Source: Thermoflexaceae bacterium
GTDB taxonomy: Bacteria > Bacillota > Clostridia > Lachnospirales > Lachnospiraceae
Direction of reading: 5' to 3'
Assembly (NCBI GenBank): GCA_029226085.1
Contig: JAQXXN010000204.1
Location: 1 to 33,728, forward strand
Length of the DNA stretch: 33,728 nucleotides
The notes beneath the pieces are model-generated. The model was not told the DNA's origin, did no database searches, and worked only from the letters and a program-made list of their open reading frames with translations. This document shows positions 948 to 1,270 of this stretch, one piece after another; position 1 is the stretch's first letter, and every line of letters starts with the position of its first letter. The translations under genes were made by a program, and so were the position numbers.

Positions 948-1270
948 GAATCTGCGGGTCAAAAGCATCTGCATGGGTGGTACGCTTCCCTTACGGAGCC
1001 GGAGGGATTCTCCATCATCGGATGCGGTATTCGAATATAAGAAATTCTAAATGTTCCATGGGAAGGATATGGTTTCTGACGCAAACGGCTTCCAATCCGA
1101 CATCCTGTCGGGTGGAAGCCTTTCCAGCCAGCCGTGGCTGGAATTGCTGTATATCGGATGCAACATTAAGAATTTCTAATATTCTTCATAATGCATCCGA
1201 TGATGGAGAACTCCTCCGACTCTGTAAGGAAAACGTACCACCCATGCAGATGCTTTTGACCCGCAGATTC
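948..1270. repeat. 323-bp near-palindromic element: 78-bp terminal inverted arms, longer imperfect stem, two apical hairpins (MITE-like or structured RNA)
   Basis: Arms 948-1025 and 1193-1270 are reverse complements at 72 of 78 positions (hand-aligned). Pairing continues inward with few interruptions (GAATATAAGAAATTCTAAATGTT vs GAATATTAGAAATTCTTAATGTT). The apex holds two hairpins: GGCTTCCA-AT-CCGACA-TCC-TGTCGG-G-TGGAAGCC (1087-1120) and TTCCAGCCA-GCCG-TGGCTGGAA (1122-1143). Confidence 0.9.

Follow-up and report, generated by a model that had tools for sequence, protein, structure and literature searches.

Upstream of glgB, the gene for glycogen branching enzyme, lies a 323-nt near-palindrome whose presence raises a simple question: is it a structured leader RNA that belongs to glgB, or a mobile element that happened to land there? 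The window, which is the whole 33,728-nucleotide stretch that we analyzed, comes from the draft genome of a gut bacterium (here G000; 2.73 Mb, 261 contigs, 88% complete) that its nearest named glgB relatives place with Lachnospiraceae. It opens with the 5' part of glgB on the minus strand (1–915; Pfam GlgB_N 5e-29, CBM_48 9e-32), which runs off the window. The palindrome occupies 948–1270, with its RNA sense on the minus strand, and its end is 33 nt from the glgB start codon (913–915), a distance that the initial annotation had given and that we confirm.

Results

The outer arm nearest glgB (948–1030) and the arm far from it (1188–1270) form an 83-nt inverted repeat that is 90% complementary, and the stem is continued inward by 27 nt of 89% complementary sequence at 1033–1059 and 1158–1184. 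When the minus-strand RNA of 930–1290 was folded, its minimum free energy was -215.7 kcal/mol compared with a shuffle mean of -91.0 (sd 5.7; z = -21.9), and 0 of 100 shuffles equaled the native stability. In the minus sense the arm stem comprises 72 Watson-Crick pairs, four G:U pairs and three mismatched or gapped positions that include a terminal bulge, in agreement with the 72 of 78 matching arm positions counted initially. The same fold bears out the two discrete neighboring hairpins that had been proposed at the apex, the first at 1122–1143 and the second at 1087–1120. An open frame of 114 codons on the plus strand (977–1321) crosses the element and its end and was judged spurious.

The center of the palindrome has a known identity. 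Minus-strand positions 1026–1191 match the TwoAYGGAY RNA (RF01731) at full length, over covariance model positions 1–168, and score 114.1 bits where the gathering score is 43. Judged by its sequence, the glgB copy is a degenerate member of this family: the loop of the first hairpin reads ACGGCU (1130–1135) and has lost GGA, the loop of the second reads AGGAU (1102–1106) and has kept it, so that neither shows the AYGGAY consensus, while the overall model match is unaffected. Many RF01731 copies, this one among them, have a loop without GGA, and copy C203 of the same genome carries AUGGAU in both hairpins. We also observed a recurrent five-base loop class without GGA, ACGAN, that stands in place of one AYGGAY loop of the pair in copies from G001, G011, G025 and G026, and an additional hairpin inside one apical loop of the core in G000:C252 (L023, 36–231). 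Rfam types RF01731 as Cis-reg and places it in the Csr-Rsm clan CL00106, and many of its loops conform to the CsrA GGA-hairpin motif.

A search for further copies, which the initial annotation had called for, returned 22 RF01731 matches in the same genome, some truncated at contig ends. Three subfamilies can be distinguished among the complete copies: A (the glgB copy C204, together with C203 and C59), B and C, of which B and C copies form composites with conserved outer ends. The outer-end sequence AAATTGGGGNTTGTNGNG has 24 matches in this genome with at most two mismatches, compared with 2 for the reversed pattern. No autonomous partner with the same ends was recognized when our draft genome was searched with the conserved ends, and the idea that such a partner lies between widely spaced copies was rejected for G025:C2 and G007:C10, where only ordinary genes occupy the interval.

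Comparison with related genomes revealed insertions. In the sister species G003 the region upstream of glgB (L166, JAMPBI010000154.1, whose GlgB is 79% identical to that of the window) aligns through the position of the element, which is absent there. When the two flanks of each of three other copies were joined, they matched one uninterrupted locus in G003 or G001, which gives orthologous empty sites at four loci: those of C204 and C203 lie in G003, those of C59 and the C129 composite in G001. A target-site duplication was sought at the sister-species empty sites, where the junctions are too diverged between species to be read. The distribution of RF01731 is patchy and often multi-copy: 7 of 61 relatives carry it, but G002 and G003, which belong to the same genus, do not, and across the family it occurs in 60 of 396 genomes. 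Other copies adjoin unrelated genes in all orientations; for the 55 copies with both neighbors called by a simple ORF heuristic there were 11 codirectional sense, 19 antisense, 13 divergent and 12 convergent placements, with no preference. Multiple dispersed copies without coding capacity, terminal inverted repeats and empty sites in relatives are all characteristic of MITEs, and the TwoAYGGAY family appears to be propagated by transposition and not to constitute a fixed leader of glgB.

Some copies have unusual arrangements. RF01731 copies are often arranged as divergent (minus, plus) pairs a few hundred bases apart, as in G000 (C39 and C178; L010, L027), G001 (C64 and C198; L069, L072) and G011 (C47 and C33; L098, L100); their outer ends are conserved in G000, and a composite mobile unit is possible. 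Compared with other composites, the one at G000:C55 (L022, 9087–9630) has its C hairpin in the opposite orientation, as would result from an inversion through recombination between the arms of that hairpin.

At glgB itself, GGAGGG at 921–926 upstream of the ATG is the probable ribosome-binding site. Just outside the far end of the element, an AT-rich stretch at 1271–1310 on the minus strand has TATAAA at 1280–1285 and resembles the sequence upstream of the G003 empty site; although not called by the sigma-70 scan, it is the probable promoter region of glgB, and the element would thus sit between this promoter and the ribosome-binding site. Assuming a transcription start some 7 nt past the TATAAA box, the glgB leader would measure about 350 nt and consist mostly of the element, and the empty site would by comparison give glgB a short leader. 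The divergent alpha/beta hydrolase gene starts at 1407, on the opposite side of the element from glgB, and a promoter-like site for it lies outside the element at 1319–1347 on the plus strand (9 of 12 consensus matches); this was the single site found, which is not above the chance mean of 1.8.

We then considered how so long a palindrome stays matched. The near-perfect stem continues past the Rfam model in most complete copies, although a few copies have no such continuation. This outer stem is about 24–34 bp long in the majority of copies from G007 and G025, and 45–82 bp long in the majority of complete copies from G000 and G001. Left arms resemble their own partners much more than the arms of other copies, with identities of 84% versus 53% in G025, 91% versus 52% in G001 and 84% versus 70% in G007; in each of these genomes 0 of 5000 permutations reached the observed value. 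The effect is weaker but present in the recent B family (96.5% versus 92.3%; 93 of 5000 permutations), and the C subfamily (836 of 5000) has too few copies to tell. Copy C224 carries an identical one-base insertion mirrored in both arms. The initial annotation had taken four G:U wobbles in the minus-strand transcript, versus two in the plus, as a weak hint of selection on minus-strand RNA. Among the outer-arm imperfections of all copies examined we counted 55 G:T and 48 A:C (p = 0.55), with no strand preference, and the wobble argument therefore fails. Template-switch correction of quasipalindromes has been documented and can look like compensatory evolution (PMC8794818, PMC7202029), and arms that match within a copy and diverge between copies fit such a mechanism, which we infer may operate here.

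The core also covaries, as the initial annotation had proposed to check. Among 13 G025 copies, 48 of 63 core pairs show changes in both partners, and 89% of cells are paired; 0 of 500 shuffles and no slid version of the structure come near these values, with the structure having been derived from the same G025 alignment, which favors it over the slid versions. Because template switching can also produce covariation, this result is silent on whether RNA or folded DNA is selected. An apparent excess of G:U in the core (72 to 14, and 107 to 19 in a second count) disappeared once only pairs predicted on both strands were counted (19 to 15), and is therefore artefactual, the structure having been chosen from a single strand.

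CsrA binding has been proposed for the GGA-bearing hairpin loops of TwoAYGGAY (PMC4333381). In a survey of 396 family genomes, for which a minimum completeness of 90% was requested and which include our own genome (88%), csrA was found in 57 of 60 RF01731 genomes and in 141 of 336 others (Fisher p = 9e-16, counting genomes as independent and without correction for phylogeny). Our genome has csrA at G000:C207:18140-18298. Two of the three RF01731 genomes without csrA are fragmented assemblies from genera with csrA in a sampled sibling; the remaining one, G302, is assembled as a single contig, has one RF01731 copy and lacks FliE as well. FliE occurs in 59 of the 60 RF01731 genomes, and since FliE and csrA mark almost the same genomes, the correlation cannot separate CsrA from motility; our attempt to set csrA apart from flagella as the correlate failed for this reason. 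The correlation thus fits the published proposal while being inseparable from flagella, and CsrA binding by the core is a plausible prediction from its sequence. RF01731-bearing G414 and G326 have 7 and 6 CsrA-family matches, where most genomes have one.

Discussion

The element upstream of glgB is a MITE-like mobile element and not a conserved glgB leader. The initial annotation had left the choice between a MITE and a structured leader RNA: the 22 matches, four empty sites and patchy presence uphold the first, the second stands as far as a structured RNA of a known Rfam family is concerned, and a leader tied to glgB does not stand. Our preferred reading, to which we assign a probability of about 0.7, is that of a dispersed non-coding mobile element with a TwoAYGGAY center. 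Its conserved part is made up of two apical hairpins, with loops that usually carry GGA, on a stem extended outward by quasi-palindromic arms. Copies would arise by transposition with the enzyme supplied in trans, and the arms would be kept matched by template switching at the DNA level and not through selection that favors pairing in one RNA strand. The transcribed core may bind CsrA, so that copies act as CsrA decoys, and the copy described here, having landed between the probable promoter and the ribosome-binding site, would form most of the glgB 5' leader. The copies have no fixed relation to neighboring genes.

We give hardly any credence to a conserved cis-regulatory leader of glgB. Its Rfam type, an RNA sense that is also the glgB sense, and the position between the probable promoter and the ribosome-binding site would all suit such a leader, but RF01731 was found at 0 of 80 other glgB loci in public genomes, within the flanks included (a set in which L167, whose sequence starts within glgB, carries no information and L166 represents the empty site of G003), and this absence is a strong argument against it, as are the empty sister locus and the unrelated neighbors of other copies. 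Very improbable as well is a REPIN-like element mobilized by a Y1 (RAYT or IS200-type) transposase. Divergent hairpin pairs do recur in G000, G001 and G011, as such an element would have it, but Y1_Tnp is present in only 16 of 37 RF01731 genomes and is lacking in multi-copy genomes of high completeness, G025, G084 and G353 among them, and we rejected Y1 as the mobilizer because it is missing from most hosts tested; our own genome (88% complete) gave 0 matches.

The remaining alternatives concern what keeps the structure. That the outer arms are held paired by selection on RNA structure, making the whole 323-nt stem a functional long RNA, is unlikely: the fold is very stable and outer helices have changed on both sides among G025 copies, but RNA selection predicts an excess of G:U that the near-equal G:T and A:C counts do not show, and the mirrored insertion of C224 and the documented alternative of template switching also speak against it. 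More serious, if still the lesser possibility, is a purely selfish palindromic MITE, in which hairpins and loops are kept as folded DNA recognized by the transposition machinery and the link to RNA function and CsrA is incidental to motile lineages. The evidence for mobility, the lack of placement bias at 55 copies, the confounding of csrA with flagella and the artefactual core G:U excess are all consistent with it, but the frequent fit of the loops to the CsrA motif and the placement of RF01731 in the Csr-Rsm clan are not what it would lead one to expect.

Returning to the preferred reading of a mobile element with a CsrA-decoy core, an orphan RNA family typed as cis-regulatory is recast as the core of a mobile element able to spread candidate CsrA-binding sites in gut Clostridia, with statistical support for the CsrA proposal that is confounded with motility. 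It is a tentative and rather doubtful extension that TwoAYGGAY elements are transposable CsrA-binding cassettes, which titrate CsrA genome-wide and put single genes, here glgB, under CsrA control; if true, jumps into promoters and leaders would rewire a global post-transcriptional network by transposition. The arms furthermore offer many natural copies for studying how long palindromes stay matched.

ERIC, bcr1 and REP elements are bacterial MITE-like palindromic repeats and serve as analogues of the TwoAYGGAY element. Like these and REPINs it is a short, dispersed, non-coding intergenic palindrome with empty sites in relatives, a likeness in kind. Unlike them, it has arms that diverge between copies yet pair within each, and it carries an Rfam RNA core; unlike REP/REPIN, it does not require a Y1 transposase, judging by presence. 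With TwoAYGGAY as described (RF01731; Weinberg et al. 2010, PMC2864571) the glgB copy shares the full-length model match and the two apical hairpins, whereas both of its AYGGAY loops are degenerate and its stem runs about 78 bp past the model on each side; the mobile, multi-copy nature for which we present evidence is not stated in those parts of the family literature that we had at hand. CsrB, CsrC and RsmX/Y/Z (clan CL00106) share with TwoAYGGAY the GGA-bearing hairpin loops, the proposed CsrA binding (PMC4333381) and the Rfam clan. In contrast to these one or two sRNA genes, TwoAYGGAY, whose CsrA binding is putative, occurs in many dispersed genomic copies and is found in csrA- and flagella-bearing Lachnospiraceae.
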